Part shown: in pieces, positions 7,677-44,598 of the stretch | Position numbering within the stretch: position 1 is the first letter of the stretch | How the letters are laid out: each line of letters starts with the position of its first letter | DNA from: Sulfuritalea sp. | Lineage (GTDB): Bacteria; Pseudomonadota; Gammaproteobacteria; Burkholderiales; Rhodocyclaceae | Assembly: GCA_020853215.1 (NCBI GenBank) | Contig: JADYZH010000075.1 | Span: 34,078-98,077, forward strand | Direction of reading: 5' to 3' | DNA: 64,000 bases | Notes under the pieces: generated by a model | What the model was told of the DNA's origin: nothing | Databases searched by the model: none | Seen by the model: only the letters and a program-made list of their open reading frames with translations | Program-made: the position numbers and the translations under genes

Positions 7677-7692
7677 CGGCAATTTTTGCCGG
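7677..7692. promoter_or_regulatory. Palindrome CGGCAATTTTTGCCGG, candidate activator site between fliF and fleS
   Basis: GGCAA-N3-TTGCC dyad in the divergent intergenic region; the same dyad recurs at 34641 and 44513. Confidence 0.5.
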
Positions 7693-7749: not shown

Positions 7750-8952
7750 ATGGTCCTTCCGTCTGTCACCCCCAAGCCGCCAACTGCTCCCGTGCCGGGT
7801 GCGCAGGTCGCGCCTGAAGAAGCGCTTCGCCTAGCTGAAGCCTTTCGAATTTTCAGTCAGGCGTCGGAGGAATTAAGCGGCGCCTACAGCAAATTGCAGA
7901 GCCATGTGGAGCAGCTTAGCGATGAGCTGGCGGCTGCCAATGGCGCCCTGCGCCAGCAGTATCAGGAGAAGGCCGCCTTGACCGAACGCCTGAGCCTGTT
8001 GCTCGACGCATTGCCCGCCGGTGTGGTGGTGCTTGACGATGCCGGTAGCGTGGTGCAGTTCAATCCGGCCGCCAGCAATTTTCTGGGTGACGTAAAAGTC
8101 GGCGCTGACTGGGCGGCGATTTATGCCAAGACGCTGGTACCCGACGCTACGCCCGGCGAGTTTCTCGGCGGCGAGCGGCACTTGGCGGTCGACGTGACGC
8201 CGCTTGATTCCACCGGCGGCCGCATTGTCCTGCTGCATGACATTACGGAGGCACAACTGCTGAAAACCCAGGCCGAACGCAATCAGCGTCTGGCAGCGAT
8301 GGGCGAAATGGCGGCCCAACTCGCGCATCAACTGCGCACACCGCTGGCCGCTGCGCTGCTCTATGCCGGCAACCTGCAAAATGCCGAACTGGCCGCGGAC
8401 AATCGTGCCGCCATCGCGGAAAAGACCGTGGCCCGCCTCAAGCACATCGAACATCTGATTCAGGACATGCTGTTGTTTGCACGCGGCGAAGCGCTCGGCC
8501 GCGAACGTTTTACCGTGACCGATCTGTTCGTCGAACTGACGCAGAATTTCGAGCCACTGGCCCAAAACAACGGCGTGCGGTTTATCGTGACCGACAAGAG
8601 TGCGGGAACGTGGCTCACTGGCAAGCGCAAATCGCTGGTCAGCGCGCTGACCAGTCTGCTGGAAAACGCGCTGCAGTCCGTCGAGGGGCAGGAAGACCGG
8701 TGCATCGAGATTTCCGCCCGACGCGAAGAGAGTACCTTGTTGCTTGCGGTAAAGGATAACGGTCGCGGCATGGACAATGCCACTGCCGCCCGTTTGTTCG
8801 AGCCTTTTTACACCACGCGCAGCGATGGTACAGGCCTCGGCCTCGCGATCGCGCGCGGTGTGGCGCGCGCCCATGGTGGCGGCATCGAAGTCATCTCCAA
8901 CCCCAGTGCCGGTGCCGAATTCATCCTCAGTCTGCCATGCCCGAAAAACTGA
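7750..8952 (+). CDS. fleS: Flagellar sensor histidine kinase, FleS/FlrB-like
   Basis: PAS, HisKA (MGEMAAQLAHQLRTPLAAALLYAGNL) and HATPase motifs; overlaps the fleR-like gene downstream, next to fliE. Confidence 0.88.
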   Translation: MVLPSVTPKPPTAPVPGAQVAPEEALRLAEAFRIFSQASEELSGAYSKLQSHVEQLSDELAAANGALRQQYQEKAALTERLSLLLDALPAGVVVLDDAGSVVQFNPAASNFLGDVKVGADWAAIYAKTLVPDATPGEFLGGERHLAVDVTPLDSTGGRIVLLHDITEAQLLKTQAERNQRLAAMGEMAAQLAHQLRTPLAAALLYAGNLQNAELAADNRAAIAEKTVARLKHIEHLIQDMLLFARGEALGRERFTVTDLFVELTQNFEPLAQNNGVRFIVTDKSAGTWLTGKRKSLVSALTSLLENALQSVEGQEDRCIEISARREESTLLLAVKDNGRGMDNATAARLFEPFYTTRSDGTGLGLAIARGVARAHGGGIEVISNPSAGAEFILSLPCPKN

Positions 8953-10352
8953 ATATCCTGGTCGTCGAGGACGACGATGCACTGCGCGATGCACTACAAG
9001 TCACGCTGCAGGCTGCCGGCCATGACGTCGGCAGTGTTGATGGCGGCCCTGCGGCACTGGAAGCCCTGCGACGCAAGGCATTCAACATGGTCGTCTCAGA
9101 CCTGCGCATGAGTCCGATGGATGGACTCACCCTGCTCGGTGAAATCCGCGTCCGGCATCCCGGCTTACCGGTCTTGCTGATGACGGCCTTCGGTGATGTC
9201 GACAAGGCGGTGGCTGCGATGCGCGGCGGGGCCTGCGATTTTATGCTGAAACCTTTCGAGCCGAAGGCGCTGATTGACCAGATTGCCCGCTATGCAACGC
9301 CTCCGGCACCAGCCGCCGGCGTCATCGCCGTCGATGCCCGGACGCGAGACACCCTGCTGCTTGCCGCACGTGTGGCGCGAACCGATGCGACGGTGCTGCT
9401 GACAGGCGAGTCCGGTGTCGGGAAGGAAGTATTCGCGCGCTATATCCACGATCAGTCGGCACGCGCGACGGGCATTTTCGTGGCCATCAATTGCGCTGCG
9501 ATTCCAGACACCTTGCTTGAAGCCACGCTTTTCGGTTACGAGAAGGGCGCGTTCACCGGCGCGCTGACCGCCCAGGCAGGCAAGTTCGAACAGGCCAACG
9601 GCGGCACCTTGCTGCTCGACGAAATATCCGAAATGCCACTGGGTCTGCAGGCCAAGCTGTTGCGGGTGCTACAGGAGCGCGAGGTGGAACGCGTCGGCGG
9701 CAAGAAACCGGTACCGCTCGATATCCGCATCCTGGCTACCTCCAACCGCGACATGGCTGGTGAAGTGCGTAAGGGACGGTTTCGTGAGGATTTGTTCTAC
9801 CGGCTTAACGTGTTTCCGCTTGAGATTCCGCCACTGCGCGAGCGTCCGGGCGATATCGTGCCGCTGGCACGAAAAATTCTGGCACAAATGGCCGCAGCGG
9901 CACGGCGTGTGGCAGGATTTGCCGCTGCGGCCGAAGCACGGCTTCTGGCGCATTCTTGGCCGGGCAACGTACGCGAACTGGAAAACGTCGTCCAGCGCGC
10001 ACTGATTCTCGAACCGGGTGAGGTGATCGAGGCCGAGGGTTTGCGCCTGGACTTCAAACCGGCCGTGCCATCGGCGGCGACATCCATGGCAGCGAATGCG
10101 CCGCCCGGCACCGCCCAACCCTTGTCACCAGGGTGCGTCCCCGCCGCAACCGACGTTGAAACCCCCGTCACAGCAGGCGTTCCCGCCGACATGAAAACGC
10201 TCGAGCGCCTGCATATCCAGGAAACCCTGGCCAGTGTTGGGGGATCGCGCAAGAAGGCCGTGGCAATCCTCGGTATCTCGGAACGCACACTGCGGTACAA
10301 GCTGAACCAGTATCGCGAAGAAGGATTGCTCAATGAACGTGAAAATGATTGA
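8937..10352 (+). CDS. fleR: Sigma54-dependent flagellar response regulator, FleR/FlrC-like
   Basis: REC (VVSDLRMSPMDGLTLL), AAA+ (GESGVGKEVFARYIHDQS, GAFTGA) and Fis-type HTH (RKKAVAILGISERTLRYKLNQYREEG). Confidence 0.93.
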   Translation: MPEKLNILVVEDDDALRDALQVTLQAAGHDVGSVDGGPAALEALRRKAFNMVVSDLRMSPMDGLTLLGEIRVRHPGLPVLLMTAFGDVDKAVAAMRGGACDFMLKPFEPKALIDQIARYATPPAPAAGVIAVDARTRDTLLLAARVARTDATVLLTGESGVGKEVFARYIHDQSARATGIFVAINCAAIPDTLLEATLFGYEKGAFTGALTAQAGKFEQANGGTLLLDEISEMPLGLQAKLLRVLQEREVERVGGKKPVPLDIRILATSNRDMAGEVRKGRFREDLFYRLNVFPLEIPPLRERPGDIVPLARKILAQMAAAARRVAGFAAAAEARLLAHSWPGNVRELENVVQRALILEPGEVIEAEGLRLDFKPAVPSAATSMAANAPPGTAQPLSPGCVPAATDVETPVTAGVPADMKTLERLHIQETLASVGGSRKKAVAILGISERTLRYKLNQYREEGLLNEREND

Positions 10353-30835: not shown

Positions 30836-31330
30836 CTATTTGCGCGACAGCTGAATCACTCCCTTTGCCACCCGCTGCGAGCCCAGCACCGATGAATCAA
30901 GTCCTTCGCTATATTCGACCACAGCATAGCTGTCGAAACCATTTTCCCGCATCAAATCCCTGGCCCGCTGGTGAAATACGGCACGTGCCTCGCCCGCCCC
31001 ACCGGCATAGACCCGCTTCATCTTCAACGAGAGATGGTAGTAACGGTCGGGGAAACTGGCCTGCTCGATCTCCCAGTTGGGCGCGAGGGGGTCGAGAATC
31101 AGCCAGGCGGCGCCGACATACAAGCCCCATCCTACGAGACTTTCCAACGGGATTTGCACTGACTTGGAAAGGTTGATCGTCGTATCGGCAATGATTGGCG
31201 ACGGAGTGGGCGTAAGGCCTGTGCTGGAACAACCCGCAAGTCCGCAGGACAGCAGCGCCAGAAACATGAGCCGGCGCTGGCGCGTTCCGCGTGCCGGGAA
31301 CTCCGCCGCACGCACAAGCAATGGCCTCAC
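30836..31330 (-). CDS. Putative lipoprotein of unknown function
   Basis: Lipobox LLSCGLAGCSS; ATG at 31330 overlaps the flgL stop; internal start at 31267 also possible. Confidence 0.65.
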   Translation of the reverse strand: MRPLLVRAAEFPARGTRQRRLMFLALLSCGLAGCSSTGLTPTPSPIIADTTINLSKSVQIPLESLVGWGLYVGAAWLILDPLAPNWEIEQASFPDRYYHLSLKMKRVYAGGAGEARAVFHQRARDLMRENGFDSYAVVEYSEGLDSSVLGSQRVAKGVIQLSRK

Positions 31331-32669: not shown

Positions 32670-34616
32670 TCATCGGCCGAGGGAAAGAATTTCATCAAAC
32701 ACCTTGCCGGCAATTTGCAGCACCTTGGCCGATGCCTGATACGCCTGCTGATAACGCAACAGGTTGGCCGCCTCTTCGTCCAGATTGACACCGGAAAGTG
32801 ACTGCAAAGCCTGTGTGGCATGATCGGCCAGCCCTTGCTGCGCGGCACCAATCGCGGCCACTTCGTTGGCCTTGCTGCCAACCGCACTGACAATCTGCGC
32901 ATAGGCTGATTGATAGGACGCGGTAGGTCCTGAAGTACTGCTACCAATCATGGTGGTGCGCGTCTGCAAGGCTCCCAGAAGCGCTGCGTTACGATTGTCT
33001 GCAACGCCATTGGTATTGGCCTCGATGGTGAAGATATCGCCTGTCGCCGAATTGCCGGTGATCTGCGTCGTCCATCCGTTGTAGGTAATATCGGCACCGG
33101 CTACATGTGCGACAGCGCTGGCCAGCGTCGTCGCTGTGGTTACGTCGACCACATCGAAAGTCGTCGGGCTGGTAAAGGTAATCGTCACCGTGTGCTGCAG
33201 CGCCGGATTGGTCGGCGGCGGCGCGTTCACAGTCCCTTCACCGATGCTGGCCGTGCCAGTGTTGGTCAGTGCTGCCGCCGTACGTATCGGCGCAGCAGCC
33301 GCAATCTGGCGGGCATCCGAAAAATTGACCGCAATGTTGCCAGCGCCGCTGCGTGTGGGCTGGATCAGCACTGTGTCATTGACAACCGGCGCCCCGGCTC
33401 CGGTCCAGGTCCCCAGCCCGATCGTCATGCCGTCGACCGTCTGCGGCAAGGTCGCATAGCTCTGCACCTGATTGTCGGAAAGGCGCGTCAATGCATAGGG
33501 AGTGGCGCCACCCACAAAGGTGAGCCGGTAATCGCTACCGGTGAGTCGATCGATCGTTGTGGCATTGATGTTCGCCGTCGGCATCCCGGTTCCAGTATTG
33601 AGGCTACTGGGACGCACAGTCGGAACAGAAGTGCTGAAAAAATTCTGCCCCAAGGCGCCGGTCAAATCCTGCCCCAACCGATGCTGGTCGTTGAAGTTCT
33701 GCGCCAGGGTCAGCGCAACACGACCAAGGGCGTTTTGCACATCATCCAGGGTCTGGCTGCGGAAATTGAGCAAACCTCCGAGGCTGCCGCCGGTAATCTG
33801 CGACTCGGGCATGGTCAGCGCCGTACCGCCAACGCCGACTATTGCAACATTGGTTCGTTCGGGATCATCGGGCGCCTGAACCGCCTTCAACTGATAGGAC
33901 TGGTTGCCCACCACCAAGGGCTGCCCATTGCCGATGAAGACGTTGAAGCTGCCGTCACCCTGCACGACCGTGCTGACCCGTACCAAGGTGTTCAGGTCCT
34001 TCAGCATTTGGTCGCGCTGATCGAGCAGATCATTGGGTGGCTGATCGGCACCGCGCGCCTGCGCCAGGATGATGCGCTGATTGATGTCGGCCAGTTGGGA
34101 ACTGTAAGTGTTTATCTGGGCGACCTGTCCGGCAATCTGCTGATTGGTGTCATCGCGAATTTCCGTCAGCCGCCGATCGATCGCCTGGAACCTTGCCGTC
34201 AGGGCCTGCGCCGCAGAGAGCATCGACTGACGACCGGGAATCGAGGCAGGGTTCGCGGCAACATCCTGCACACCTTTGAAGAATGCGGCAAGCGCGGGCG
34301 ACAGTCCGGAACTGGAGTCGGCCAACAGATTGTCGATCTGGCTGATCTGCGCCTGATAGGTGCCCATCTCCGCGGCGCCGGCCTCCGCACTTAGCACCTG
34401 GCGACCGAGAAACTGGTCATATATCCGCCTGACAGTCTGCACGTGCGTTCCCTGGCCCACGAAGCCCACGCCAGTAAAGGTAGCGGTATTCGTCCCCTGA
34501 ACGATCTCCTGACGGTTGTAACCGGCAGTCGAGGCATTGGCAATATTGTGACTGGTCGTCAACATCCCAGCCTGTGCCGCATTGAGCCCGCTGATACCAA
34601 CACTGAAAACGCTCAT
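32670..34616 (-). CDS. flgK: Flagellar hook-associated protein FlgK
   Basis: MSVFSVGISGLNAAQAGMLTTSHNIANASTAGYNRQEIVQ; C-terminal SGVNLDEEAANLLRYQQAYQASAKVLQ. Confidence 0.98.
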   Translation of the reverse strand: MSVFSVGISGLNAAQAGMLTTSHNIANASTAGYNRQEIVQGTNTATFTGVGFVGQGTHVQTVRRIYDQFLGRQVLSAEAGAAEMGTYQAQISQIDNLLADSSSGLSPALAAFFKGVQDVAANPASIPGRQSMLSAAQALTARFQAIDRRLTEIRDDTNQQIAGQVAQINTYSSQLADINQRIILAQARGADQPPNDLLDQRDQMLKDLNTLVRVSTVVQGDGSFNVFIGNGQPLVVGNQSYQLKAVQAPDDPERTNVAIVGVGGTALTMPESQITGGSLGGLLNFRSQTLDDVQNALGRVALTLAQNFNDQHRLGQDLTGALGQNFFSTSVPTVRPSSLNTGTGMPTANINATTIDRLTGSDYRLTFVGGATPYALTRLSDNQVQSYATLPQTVDGMTIGLGTWTGAGAPVVNDTVLIQPTRSGAGNIAVNFSDARQIAAAAPIRTAAALTNTGTASIGEGTVNAPPPTNPALQHTVTITFTSPTTFDVVDVTTATTLASAVAHVAGADITYNGWTTQITGNSATGDIFTIEANTNGVADNRNAALLGALQTRTTMIGSSTSGPTASYQSAYAQIVSAVGSKANEVAAIGAAQQGLADHATQALQSLSGVNLDEEAANLLRYQQAYQASAKVLQIAGKVFDEILSLGR

Positions 34617-34640
34617 GATCACTCCACGATGGAACCCGAA

Positions 34641-34661
34641 TAACGGCAAAATTTGCCGTTA
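34641..34661. promoter_or_regulatory. Perfect 21-bp palindrome TAACGGCAAA-A-TTTGCCGTTA in the flgK leader region
   Basis: 10-bp perfect arms; lies between the predicted flgK sigma54 promoter and the flgK start. Confidence 0.6.
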
Positions 34662-34681
34662 GTTGAGTATTCAGGGGGAAT

Positions 34682-34700
34682 GGAGCAACCTGCGTGCCAA
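34682..34700 (-). promoter_or_regulatory. Sigma54 promoter for flgK(L)
   Basis: Minus strand TTGGCACG-CAGG-TTGCTCC, near-perfect consensus with GG-N10-GC. Confidence 0.85.
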
Positions 34701-34825
34701 GCCTTGAATTTTGGAGTGCAAACCAAGGAATTTCAGCGGCGCCTCAGGTCTATCCACTGTTGTCCGCTTCATTTTTTTAAAAAAATAACCAACCCACGCC
34801 CCTCGAAATACAGGTATCCACTTTC

Positions 34826-34843
34826 TGGCCTGGGTCTTGCTTT
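34826..34843 (+). promoter_or_regulatory. Sigma54 promoter for the EF-hand gene
   Basis: TGGCCTG-GGTC-TTGCTTT, GG-N10-GC, 55 bp upstream of the ORF start. Confidence 0.7.
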
Positions 34844-34897
34844 GCAATAAACCACACTTCGGTATCAGAGTGCGCAACAGCAGACAAGGAGACAGAC

Positions 34898-35506
34898 ATG
34901 ATAGGCATTGGCACCATCATCAGCCTTGCAGCATCGGCATTTCAAATCATACAGGCGGCGAACCGCCCCGACCCCGCGACACAGAAAGCCGACCAATTAT
35001 TTTCGCAACTTGATGCCGCTGGAAAAGGTTCCATTGAAAGTGCCGACCTGAAGTCGGCTTTCGACAAGATCGCGGCAAAGGCCACCGTCAAAGCGGACCA
35101 GCTCTTTTCAAAGCTTGATGCCAATAGCGATGGCGCGGTAAGCAAAGAAGAGTTTTCAATCTCGATAAATCGACTAGCCGACCAGCTTGATCAGCATTAC
35201 ATGCGTGTGCGTATGCATGGTGAGCAGGTCGGCAAGAGCTTCTCCCAGAATGAACTAATTGGCCTGGCGTCACATGTCACCAAAAACTTCAACAACGCTG
35301 ATCGGGATGGTGACGGCAGGATCAGTATCAAGGAAGCCGCCGATTTCGGGAAGGCCAATTCAACTGGTTCCCTGTCAGCCTCCTCGACTTCCCCTGCAGA
35401 AAGCCAGAATATCGAGCTGATGCTGCAGGTGCTACGGTTGATGCAAGCCTACGGCACGAATCAAGGCGCACCCGGCAACAGCGGGAGCAAGCCTCCAAAC
35501 GTTTAG
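34898..35506 (+). CDS. EF-hand calcium-binding protein of unknown function
   Basis: DANSDGAVSKEEF and DRDGDGRISIKEA EF-hand loops, plus degenerate loops near the N-terminus; hydrophobic N-terminus. Confidence 0.82.
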   Translation: MIGIGTIISLAASAFQIIQAANRPDPATQKADQLFSQLDAAGKGSIESADLKSAFDKIAAKATVKADQLFSKLDANSDGAVSKEEFSISINRLADQLDQHYMRVRMHGEQVGKSFSQNELIGLASHVTKNFNNADRDGDGRISIKEAADFGKANSTGSLSASSTSPAESQNIELMLQVLRLMQAYGTNQGAPGNSGSKPPNV

Positions 35507-35628
35507 GTTGTGGCCTTGCTGCGGTAATCCACATTGGACTTCTCGCAGCCGTCCTCCAATTCAAGGCGCCGTGTCGCCAGCGCCGACATTTGGAGGTTAA
35601 TTGCGTCTCTTGTCGAGACTTCCGAAAA

Positions 35629-36615
35629 TCATGCAGTCCAGCCAGCCAAAGCCTGCCTCAGCGTCGCGCCGCCAATGATGCTTTCGAGCTTGGCCGCGTA
35701 CTGTGGGTCGGTGGCATAGCCGGCGGTCTGCAAGCCGCGGGCAAAGCGGTCCGGCTCCTGCGCGCCAAGAATTGCCGCGTAGCGTGGGTTGCTGACCAGC
35801 AGACTGGCGTAATCACCAACTGCTTCGTCGTAGGAACCATAGGCACGGAAACGTTCAACGCGGGTCTGCGCCAGGCCGGCAATGACTTCCGTGGTGGTCG
35901 CCTCCACCGTCGCGCCGCGCCAGTTGGCACCCGCCTTGATGCCGAAGATGTTGAAGCTCGAACTGCCATCGGCACGGCGCGGCTCGAACTTGCCCCAGCC
36001 GGTTTCCAGCGCCGCCTGTGCCACCATGAAGTGCGCCGGAATGCCGGTCATACGTTCGGCAGCAACGGCTGCCGGCAGAATGCGATCGACGAACGCACGT
36101 TGCGTGGTGGCGCTGCCTGATACCGGAGCCGTAGTCGGCGGGACGGGAGCGGCAGGGGCGAGCGGAAGATTCTGCAGGGGAACGAAGGCCGGTGCGGCAT
36201 CGCGCTGCAGCGGCAGCGCATGCTCCCGCGACACAGAAAAAGCCGGAGCATCAACTTGCAGCGGAAAGGGTCCATGCAACGGCCGCGGGTCCTGATTCTG
36301 GCGCGCCAATTGCGCCTCGATCATCGCCGCCAGGCCGGTACCCCGGTTGCCGCCGCCAAGCACCTGGGCAAGCTGCTGGTCGAGCAATGATTCATACATC
36401 CGCGTCTGATCGCTATCGAAGACTCCTTCGCGCGGCGTGGCTTCGCGCATCGACTTCATGACCATCTGCAAGAAGAATGCCTCGAATTGCCGGGCAACCT
36501 CCTTGTTCGCCGCCGGATCACCCCTGCCCGCCTGACGCTTGAGCGTGGCAAGGCTGCTGACATCGAGGACGTTCGCAGTTGCAGGCAGCGGAGCTATGTT
36601 GTTGGCGTTGGCCAT
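35629..36615 (-). CDS. flgJ: Flagellar rod assembly protein/muramidase FlgJ
   Basis: EAFFLQMVMKSMREATP rod-binding domain; glucosaminidase domain FMVAQAALETGWGK. Confidence 0.96.
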   Translation of the reverse strand: MANANNIAPLPATANVLDVSSLATLKRQAGRGDPAANKEVARQFEAFFLQMVMKSMREATPREGVFDSDQTRMYESLLDQQLAQVLGGGNRGTGLAAMIEAQLARQNQDPRPLHGPFPLQVDAPAFSVSREHALPLQRDAAPAFVPLQNLPLAPAAPVPPTTAPVSGSATTQRAFVDRILPAAVAAERMTGIPAHFMVAQAALETGWGKFEPRRADGSSSFNIFGIKAGANWRGATVEATTTEVIAGLAQTRVERFRAYGSYDEAVGDYASLLVSNPRYAAILGAQEPDRFARGLQTAGYATDPQYAAKLESIIGGATLRQALAGWTA

Positions 36616-39336: not shown

Positions 39337-40608
39337 TCAGGTGGCGTTTGCCAGGTTCTGCAGCACCTGGTCAAGAATCTTGAAGGTCTGGGCGCTCGCC
39401 TGATAGTTGCGTTGCTGTTCGATCAGGGCCACCAGTTCAACCGTCAGGTCGACGTTAGACTGTTCCCTGGCGGCGCCCTGGATACTGCCGAGTCCGAATC
39501 CCCGGTTGCCCAGCGGCGTATCGAGAAGTTCTGTGCCGGAGCCCTTCACCGGATCCGCATTGGCCATCCACTGGTTGTCGCCCAGACTGATCAGCGCATT
39601 GGGGTTGATGAAATTGGCGAGCACGACCTGCGCCACCTTGCGCGACTGGCCGTTTGAATAATATGCCTGAATTACGCCATCGTTGCCGACGCGGAGGCCG
39701 ACGGCACCGTCAATCGCACCAGCACCATAGCCATCCTGGGTGATCGCACTGACGCTGAACGGATTGCCATACTGGACGGTTTTTCCCAGATCAAGGGTGA
39801 TGGACAGGTTGCCGCCGCCACCTAGGGCGTAGGTCTGGGCTGCCAGCGGCATCGCGGTCGTCAGCAGGCCGTTGGTATCGAAACCCAGGTTCACCGGCCC
39901 GGTCTGCGCGATGCCATCCAGCGTGGTATGCAGGTCCCAATTATTTCCCGGTAAGGATTTTGAAAAATACAATCTCAGTTCGTGGGTCGCGCCAGATACG
40001 TCGAATACAGTGACTGCGGTCGAGTCGTTGTAGGTCTGCTCGTTATTCGCGGCGAAGGGTGCCATCGCCGGGGGCGCCGCCTGAGCATCCAGGCTGGCGC
40101 CGACCAGCACCCTGCTGGTTGCGGCGGCCGGCATCACCGGATCGATCAGGATATCCTGCGGCGCGGCAGTCGTTACGATCACGCCTTGGGGATCTGTGCC
40201 GTAGTCGGCCGCATAGCCGGTGACATTGAGTCCGCTGCGGTTGACGAGTGCGAACTGGCCCGACGTGCCGGTGTCGTAGCTCAGTCCAAACTGGCCATCG
40301 CGGGAATAGGTTATCGCGCCACCATTATTCAGGCGGAAGAAACCCGGCCCGGTGATCGCCATGTCGATGGGGTTGTCGCTTTGCAGCGCAACCCCCTGAT
40401 CGAACTTCTGATTGATGATTTCCGCACTGACGCCGGCACTCGCCGCTCCGCTCGACGGTTCGCCGGTCGCCGAGGCAGCAAGCACGTCGGCAAAGCGTGC
40501 GCTCGAGCTCTTGAAGCCGATGGTTTGCGAATTCGCAATGTTGTTGCCGATGACGTCGATCGCCCTCGAAGCGGCGGTCAGTCCGCTCAGGCTGGTTGCG
40601 AAGCTCAT
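39337..40608 (-). CDS. Second FlgE-like hook protein
   Basis: MSFATSLSGLTAASRAIDVIGNNIANSQTIGFKSSSARFADVLAAS...SNVDLTVELVALIEQQRNYQASAQTFKILDQVLQNLANAT; same ends and similar length as FlgE at 41524. Confidence 0.9.
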   Translation of the reverse strand: MSFATSLSGLTAASRAIDVIGNNIANSQTIGFKSSSARFADVLAASATGEPSSGAASAGVSAEIINQKFDQGVALQSDNPIDMAITGPGFFRLNNGGAITYSRDGQFGLSYDTGTSGQFALVNRSGLNVTGYAADYGTDPQGVIVTTAAPQDILIDPVMPAAATSRVLVGASLDAQAAPPAMAPFAANNEQTYNDSTAVTVFDVSGATHELRLYFSKSLPGNNWDLHTTLDGIAQTGPVNLGFDTNGLLTTAMPLAAQTYALGGGGNLSITLDLGKTVQYGNPFSVSAITQDGYGAGAIDGAVGLRVGNDGVIQAYYSNGQSRKVAQVVLANFINPNALISLGDNQWMANADPVKGSGTELLDTPLGNRGFGLGSIQGAAREQSNVDLTVELVALIEQQRNYQASAQTFKILDQVLQNLANAT

Positions 40609-41523: not shown

Positions 41524-42822
41524 TTAACGCAGGTTGACCAGGGTTTGCAGAATGCTGTCCTGCGTCTTGATCGTCTGCGCGTTGGCCTGGTAGGCCCGCT
41601 GCTGGGTGATCATGTTGACCAGTTCGGCGGTCAGATCCACATTGGAATCCTCAAGCCCGGAGGCCTGCAGAACGCCATACTGTCCCGAGGATCCCGGCGC
41701 GCCGACAATCGGATCGCCGCTCGTCGGCGACTGCGCCCAGCGATTGTCGCCCAGGGGCTGCAAACCCTGCGGATTGCGGAAACTGGCAAGGATGACCTGG
41801 CCCACCGGGTTGGTCTGCCCATTGGTATAGCGACCCAGCACCACGCCATCCTTGCCGATACTGAACCCCGCCAGCGTGCCCGCGGCAAATCCATCCTGAA
41901 TCATGGCATTCACCGCAAACTGCGTGCCGTACTGGGTGGATCCGCTGAAATCGACCGGGAATACCTGCGGCGTGGTAACCGCTCCGGCATACCCAAGCTG
42001 CGCGTCGGTGAGCGATGCGGTAAACGCGGGAGAAGTGAGCGCGCCCGATGTATTGAAGGTCAAGGTCCCAAGAGCTGTAACACCGCCACCGGATAGATCG
42101 AGAAACGTCGGCACTGCACCCGCCGGGTTCGTGATCGTCGCATAGGCCTGCCAGGTATTTGCAGCTGCGGCCTTGACGAAATACATCGAGTAGGTATGCG
42201 GATTCCCCAGGCTGTCATAGATGGTCGTCGCCGTCGACTGGTTGTATGAGGTGGGATCGCCGTAATCGAATGGCGCGGTGATCGGGACTCCCAGGCGAGA
42301 ATCGAGGTTGATATTCGCCTGAATCCCGGTCGCCGAACTGCTGCCACCCGTGGCTTGTGGCGTGCCGGACAAACTCTGGGTCGGATCGAACAGGCGCAGC
42401 GGTACCGCCGGCGATCCGGCGGCAATCAGTCCATTGACAGCCGCGATACCCTTGAGCTGCAAACCTTGGGAATTCACGATAAAGCCGTCCTTGTCGAGCT
42501 GGAATTGGCCATTCCGGCCGTAGACCGTTCCGCCCGAGCCGTCATCCATAAGGAAGAATCCGCCGCCATTGATTGCCGTGTCCAGCGGATTGTTGGTGAC
42601 GGAGATATTGCCCTGGGAAAATTGTTGAACGATAGCCGACACCTTGGATCCAATTCCCACCGGTGCCGCACCAGCACCGCTGAGCGAGGCCGCAAAAACG
42701 TCGGCGAACTGTGCCGAACCGCTCTTGAAGCCTATCGTTCCCGAGTTGGCGATGTTGTTGCCGACGGTATCAAGCGCCTTTGAGGATGCGTTGAGACCGC
42801 TCAAACCTTGCTGAAAGCCCAT
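41524..42822 (-). CDS. flgE: Flagellar hook protein FlgE
   Basis: MGFQQGLSGLNASSKALDTVGNNIANSGTIGFKSGSAQFADVFAASL; VDLTAELVNMITQQRAYQANAQTIKTQDSILQTLVNLR; follows flgD. Confidence 0.97.
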   Translation of the reverse strand: MGFQQGLSGLNASSKALDTVGNNIANSGTIGFKSGSAQFADVFAASLSGAGAAPVGIGSKVSAIVQQFSQGNISVTNNPLDTAINGGGFFLMDDGSGGTVYGRNGQFQLDKDGFIVNSQGLQLKGIAAVNGLIAAGSPAVPLRLFDPTQSLSGTPQATGGSSSATGIQANINLDSRLGVPITAPFDYGDPTSYNQSTATTIYDSLGNPHTYSMYFVKAAAANTWQAYATITNPAGAVPTFLDLSGGGVTALGTLTFNTSGALTSPAFTASLTDAQLGYAGAVTTPQVFPVDFSGSTQYGTQFAVNAMIQDGFAAGTLAGFSIGKDGVVLGRYTNGQTNPVGQVILASFRNPQGLQPLGDNRWAQSPTSGDPIVGAPGSSGQYGVLQASGLEDSNVDLTAELVNMITQQRAYQANAQTIKTQDSILQTLVNLR

Positions 42823-42835
42823 GCTCTTCTCCCGC

Positions 42836-43519
42836 TCAGAAAATTTGTTTGACGTTGCCCATTGTTGCCAATCCAAGTGGCCCAAGGTCGAGCGTTACGC
42901 CCTGACTGCTACGGTTAACGCTCACCACCCCGGCAAGTTCCAGCGGCGAGATATCCACCTTCTCGGTACCACGCTTCGCCGTAAGCGCCATGCTGTAACT
43001 GCCATGCGCTGCCTCTGCGCCCGAGTCGGTCTTGCCGTCCCAGGCGAAAGTGTGCACGCCGGCGTCGAGGTCGCCGAGCTCAATGGTCCTGATTGGCAAG
43101 CCGTTGGGATCCTTGATGGTCAGCACCACCTGATCGGCCGCAGCGGCCAGTTCCATGCCGCCCACCGCGCCACTGCCGGTCAGTTTGAGTCCGCTGCCGG
43201 CCACCATCACCTGACGCCCTACCAGCGCAGCCGCCTGCATGGCCTCGGCATCGACGGTGCTCGACAGCAGCTTTTGCAAGGTTGCATTCAATTTCTCGAT
43301 GCCATCTACGGTACTGATCTGGGCCAGCTGGGACGTCATCTGGGCGTTATCCATCGGGTTCAGCGGATCCTGATTCTTGAGCTGAGTCGTCAGCAGTTTC
43401 AGGAAACGGTCCTGCGCTTCGTTGGTGACGCTCTTGGCTTTGGTGCTTGCGGTGCCATTGACTGAATCGATCAGCGTCTGGGCAACGCCTGTACCCCCTG
43501 CAGTTACGGTAGTTGTCAT
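42836..43519 (-). CDS. flgD: Flagellar hook capping protein FlgD
   Basis: DRFLKLLTTQLKNQDPLNPMDNAQMTSQLAQISTVDGIEKLN. Confidence 0.98.
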   Translation of the reverse strand: MTTTVTAGGTGVAQTLIDSVNGTASTKAKSVTNEAQDRFLKLLTTQLKNQDPLNPMDNAQMTSQLAQISTVDGIEKLNATLQKLLSSTVDAEAMQAAALVGRQVMVAGSGLKLTGSGAVGGMELAAAADQVVLTIKDPNGLPIRTIELGDLDAGVHTFAWDGKTDSGAEAAHGSYSMALTAKRGTEKVDISPLELAGVVSVNRSSQGVTLDLGPLGLATMGNVKQIF

Positions 43520-44417: not shown

Positions 44418-44512
44418 GCACTAATATCCCTTATGCCTGCGCTGAATCCCGCATCAAACGTACGCCGGCGGCAGGAGTCGCCCTTGCCGTGGCAAATGCG
44501 TAACACCGACGT

Positions 44513-44525
44513 GGCAAAAGTTGCC
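44513..44525. promoter_or_regulatory. Palindrome GGCAAAAGTTGCC between flgB and flgA
   Basis: GGCAA-N3-TTGCC dyad about 100 bp upstream of the flgB sigma54 promoter. Confidence 0.45.
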
Positions 44526-44598
44526 GCCCGAAGTAAGGCACTGCCCGTAACCTTCGGGATACAACGTCGCCCTGGGCATCGTGCTGTATTCTTCACCC

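Follow-up and report, generated by a model that had tools for sequence, protein, structure and literature searches.

The FleSR-, FlrBC- and FlbD-type flagellar regulons combine sigma54 -24/-12 sites with a FleR-type activator gene in the flagellar cluster itself, and both features are also present in the 64,000-nucleotide stretch of Sulfuritalea sp. DNA analyzed here (the window; genome assembly of 364 contigs, 90% complete, 5% contamination). In such regulons, the FlbD ftr site has a GGCAA...TTGCC-like sequence. EF-hand proteins are, to our knowledge, not among the standard components of flagella, and calcium sensing in bacteria is still poorly understood. A first-pass annotation of the window had singled out an EF-hand protein gene lying between flgK and flgJ as a calcium-binding member of the flagellar sigma54 regulon. 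Based on sequence comparisons across the bacterial family, we consider it fairly likely that this protein is an accessory member of that regulon, with a palindromic upstream element mediating its control.

The EF-hand gene and its flagellar neighborhood

The gene (P0001; 34898..35506, plus strand), assigned from the ORF list, Pfam and orthologues, encodes a protein of 202 aa. The span first given for it, 34826-35506, had the correct end, but position 34826 belongs to the promoter and the ORF begins at 34898. By direct reading, it is preceded by a good ribosome-binding site, AAGGAG (34886..34891, plus strand), which is invariant in G021, a sister genome with the same gene order and an EF-hand protein 77% identical to P0001. 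The canonical EF-hand loops reported earlier were recovered as loop 2 (DANSDGAVSKEE, residues 74-85; 35117..35152, plus strand), read directly and matched by Pfam EF-hand_1, EF-hand_5, EF-hand_6 and EF-hand_7, and loop 4 (DRDGDGRISIKE, residues 135-146; 35300..35335, plus strand), supported by direct reading and Pfam. Loop 1 (DAAGKGSIESAD, residues 39-50; 35012..35047, plus strand) is degenerate and was placed by direct reading, alignment and an EF-hand pair match covering residues 30-86, and the EF3 position at about residues 110-122 is without a loop. The protein thus appears to have four EF-hand positions, two of which are likely Ca2+ sites. In the Pfam search, EF-hand_7 matched P0001 in two stretches (E=3.8e-15, 56.4 bits; cut-off 30 bits), and with a domain above the cut-off together with a canonical D-x-D/N-x-D-G loop the protein belongs to the EF-hand superfamily. 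Direct reading of P0001 revealed no typical signal peptide and no basic N-region. A structure prediction from two sequences had a mean pLDDT of 36, and a search for plasmid carriage of the gene gave no match.

As had been proposed, the EF-hand gene sits in the gap between flgK (32670..34616, minus strand; Pfam FlgK_D1, E=3.3e-81) and flgJ, which Pfam identifies by its rod-binding and glucosaminidase domains (35629..36615, minus strand), and it is antiparallel to both. This neighborhood is not a conserved trait, as it was found in the window genome and G021 alone among approximately 400 genomes, and none of the neighborhoods examined outside these two was flagellar. Conserved synteny therefore does not place the EF-hand gene in the flagellar gene cluster, and synteny with flgK and flgJ, being limited to two genomes, was dropped as an argument for a flagellar role.

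Three further observations concern the flagellar locus itself. The flgK frame of G021 (L017, 1784-4888) comprises ~1034 codons, compared with 648 aa in the window, and has a large mid-FlgK insertion. A lipoprotein-like gene after flgL (30836-31330, minus strand), with no Pfam match above cut-off, is kept in G021 (76%) and also adjoins flgL in G203 (44%), and may encode a flagellar-locus protein. The window also has a pair of FlgE-like hook genes that share an operon (39337-40608 and 41524-42885).

A conserved sigma54-type promoter

The good -24/-12 match described 5' of the ORF is located at 34826..34841 on the plus strand (TGGCCTGGGTCTTGCT), and was identified by reading, comparison with G021 and family conservation. 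It reads TGGCCTG-GGTC-TTGCT, has GG-N10-GC spacing and lies 72 bp 5' of the ATG. The divergent flgK promoter, likewise noted before, was found by pattern scan on the minus strand at 34684..34699 (TGGCACGCAGGTTGCT; TGGCACG-CAGG-TTGCT), with TGGCACGGCCATTGCT as its counterpart in G021. A single site of this kind is weak evidence, since the window holds six TGGC-N7-TTGCW sites against 1.8 expected; the evidence for the EF-hand promoter is strong because the site is conserved across relatives. Between G021 and the window, the stretch TTCTGGCYTGGGTCTTGCTTTG (TTCTGGC to GCTTTG) differs by one base, and the surrounding intergenic region has diverged. No sigma70 promoter for the EF-hand gene was found on its strand within 34500-35700.

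A contig search with the single protein returned one relative only, the Rhodocyclaceae MAG G402 (CAIYZZ010000238.1, 74% identical). In a sample of 399 genomes of the same GTDB family, 118 had a match to the EF-hand protein. These include a compact clade (45-79% identical) formed by the window genome, G021, G402 and the genus g34 (10 genomes), and a wider clade of Ser/Thr-rich proteins whose genes often adjoin an OmpR/EnvZ-type response regulator and kinase. All 13 compact-clade genes, two of which adjoin flgK, carry a TGGCYNGGNTCTTGCW-like site 67-73 bp 5' of the start. In the family as a whole, GGC-N7-TTGC occurs 60-130 bp upstream of 58 of 69 members, representing 19 of 22 genera, compared with a mean of 1.0 and a maximum of 4 in 200 dinucleotide shuffles; the relatives' sequences are not independent, and 19 of 22 genera is still far beyond the shuffles. 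The core promoter consensus across the family is TGGCCGATA[TA]CTTGCW. The relatives' start codons were picked by rule and a few are perhaps wrong (e.g., L019), and the genes L099 and L104 were not located in their regions. The -24/-12 site is missing in some family members, for example in all four of g50, and the GGC-N7-TTGC site is absent from the out-of-family relatives L018 and L021. With a -24/-12 site of GG-N10-GC spacing kept in its orthologues, the gene has the features of a sigma54 regulon member, and the earlier proposal of a sigma54-type promoter of its own gains support from family-wide conservation that includes relatives distant from flagellar genes.

An OmpR/EnvZ-type regulator and/or kinase adjoins the EF-hand genes L018, L019, L020, L021, L067, L103, and L117, and such neighbors of wider-family genes are conserved outside this bacterial family too. 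Most wider-family proteins (L018-L021, L067, L103, and L117) have a conserved tail at the C-terminus, which follows the pattern (L/I/V)S-V-(S/T)-A.

A palindrome shared with flagellar genes

Alignment of the g34 upstream regions revealed palindromes of the form CGGCAA-N3-TTGCCG, mostly two per EF-hand gene and with a near-constant spacing of 31-33 bp. Allowing up to one mismatch, the palindrome is found upstream of 48 of 69 family EF-hand genes in 18 genera (shuffles 0.3), and 47 of the 69 have it together with GGC-N7-TTGC (shuffles 0). In the window, a perfect copy identical in G021, proposed as an enhancer (UAS), lies in the flgK/EF-hand gap (CGGCAAAATTTGCCG, 34644..34658), a second perfect copy is located between a gene read as fliF (minus strand) and fleS (plus strand) at 7677..7691, and a copy with one mismatch is located between flgB and flgA (44512-44526). 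The latter two are candidate operators of this family's flagellar activator. Genomes contain two to nine perfect copies each, compared with none or one of a reversed control. When 57 perfect copies were tallied by hand, with gene names taken from similarity to window genes, 37 were in flagellar regions (flgA/flgB, flgK, fliK, fleR/fliE, fleS/fliF, flhB, and fliC), some of them within coding sequence, and three preceded EF-hand genes that are distant from flagellar loci; the other 17 were elsewhere, many within coding sequence such as rpsA. G110 and G076, in which the search found no member of this EF-hand family, have the same flagellar palindrome distribution. In G199, a perfect palindrome around position 1497 of L188 precedes a gene reading as pilU, and a link between the palindrome activator and type IV pili is possible.

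The palindrome is thus an upstream element common to EF-hand and flagellar promoters, as would be expected in a FleR regulon, and since about two-thirds of the perfect copies are at flagellar genes, the EF-hand protein probably belongs to the flagellar sigma54 regulon. In G135, where the EF-hand gene is at another locus, the flgK palindrome is positioned between the -24/-12 site and the start as in the window, and the window palindrome is therefore probably flgK's own. The EF-hand gene may have moved beside it with its core promoter and lost its own copy.

The best candidate activator of the EF-hand gene is the fleR-type response regulator encoded at 8937..10352 (plus strand), in which Pfam identifies a sigma54-interaction domain and a Fis-type HTH, and CGGCAA-N3-TTGCCG is the putative FleR site. 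Active FleS/FleR would lead to binding of FleR to the palindrome, and the bound FleR would turn on sigma54 polymerase at rod/hook-class genes as well as at the EF-hand gene, which in the window would use the flgK-adjacent palindrome, at a distance of 167 bp from the -24 element of the EF-hand promoter. More tentatively, Ca2+ on loops 2 and 4 might change the conformation of the protein, which might then sense or buffer Ca2+ in connection with motility or the surface switch; it may also be exported by the flagellar type III apparatus. It is possible, though rather unlikely, that the Rhodocyclaceae EF-hand family as a whole is a dedicated calcium-responsive part of the flagellar sigma54 program, perhaps flagellar-exported, through which Ca2+ is read in the decision to swim or settle.

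The proposal of flagellar sigma54 regulon membership is thus probably correct as far as the conserved promoter and the flagellar-type palindrome are concerned, but synteny and exclusive co-occurrence with flagella do not support it. The EF-hand protein and flgK do co-occur: by hand count, flgK is present in 111 of the 118 genomes with an EF-hand match and in 238 of the 281 without, but the base rate of flagella is high. G172 (10 contigs) and G291, both 99% complete and from one related genus, have an intact EF-hand gene that retains the -24/-12 site and perfect palindromes; neither genome contained FlgK_D1, rod-type proteins, a FleR orthologue or a FleR-like HTH. The gene is therefore not restricted to genomes with flagella or FleR, which counters a strictly flagellar role and weakens the case for FleR as the sole possible activator. 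The sites in G172 and G291 could serve another activator, reflect a recent loss of flagella or be relics. The sigma54-dependent EF-hand genes might be driven by a different enhancer-binding protein that recognizes a FleR-like sequence; flagellar genes would then share the motif because the two regulators have the same specificity, and any tie to motility would be indirect, for example through surface or envelope signaling. This is possible, and less probable than membership of the flagellar regulon. The few palindromes in G172 and G291 fit it, in that only those upstream of the EF-hand genes are near a matching promoter, as does a core promoter with its own conserved consensus, TGGCCGATA[TA]CTTGC, where the EF-hand TGGCCGATA differs from the flagellar TGGCAC; many family members, moreover, have an OmpR/EnvZ-type two-component system rather than flagellar genes as neighbors. 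However, most perfect palindromes in flagellate genomes are at flagellar genes, and neither G172 nor G291 yielded another regulator carrying a FleR-like HTH (highest identity, 37%).

Adjacency to flgK in only two genomes would also be expected if the promoter were real and the neighborhood accidental, the gene having transposed between flgJ and flgK in two sister species without any functional link to flagella. We consider this quite unlikely, as in 18 genera relatives at unrelated loci are preceded by flagellar-type palindromes, and the sister species has preserved the promoter along with a 77% identical protein. An effector of the XopAW type that is injected via type III secretion is less likely still. 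XopAW (NCBIfam NF041410, a calcium-binding type III effector) is the best curated model for P0001 (E=8.4e-16), the two have EF-hand pairs and a similar length in common, and the N-termini of the wider relatives are Ser/Thr-rich (35%). However, the score of P0001 is 58.5 bits, half the curated cut-off of 120, and five relatives at 45-64 bits are also below it. P0001 is thus homologous to XopAW, but its membership of that family was rejected. The compact-clade N-terminus is hydrophobic and not Ser-rich, these proteins come from environmental Rhodocyclaceae and have sigma54 promoters, and within the window no type III apparatus was seen besides the flagellar one; no host-directed secretion system was seen.

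Comparison with known systems

P0001 shares paired EF-hands and two canonical loops with calmodulin-type EF-hand proteins (Pfam EF-hand_7), and differs from them in its degenerate positions 1 and 3, its bacterial origin and its extra N- and C-terminal tails. With regard to regulation, the enhancer-like palindromes near flgK, flgB, fliE, and fliC resemble those of the FleSR, FlrBC and FlbD systems, and no EF-hand protein has been described in a sigma54 flagellar regulon of this type in the searchable literature. In this large family of environmental bacteria, the 15-bp palindrome is a candidate operator at which the flagellar activator would bind. At the sequence level, a Ca2+-binding protein is linked across the family with the flagellar sigma54 switch, which offers a testable entry point through a single promoter and a single proposed operator. 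No PEP-CTERM motif was seen in the window EF-hand protein. The RpoN-dependent PEP-CTERM genes of floc-forming bacteria (PrsR regulon) may be a comparable case among betaproteobacteria, in which sigma54-controlled accessory genes are combined with a predicted upstream enhancer, as is proposed here (PMC9850573).
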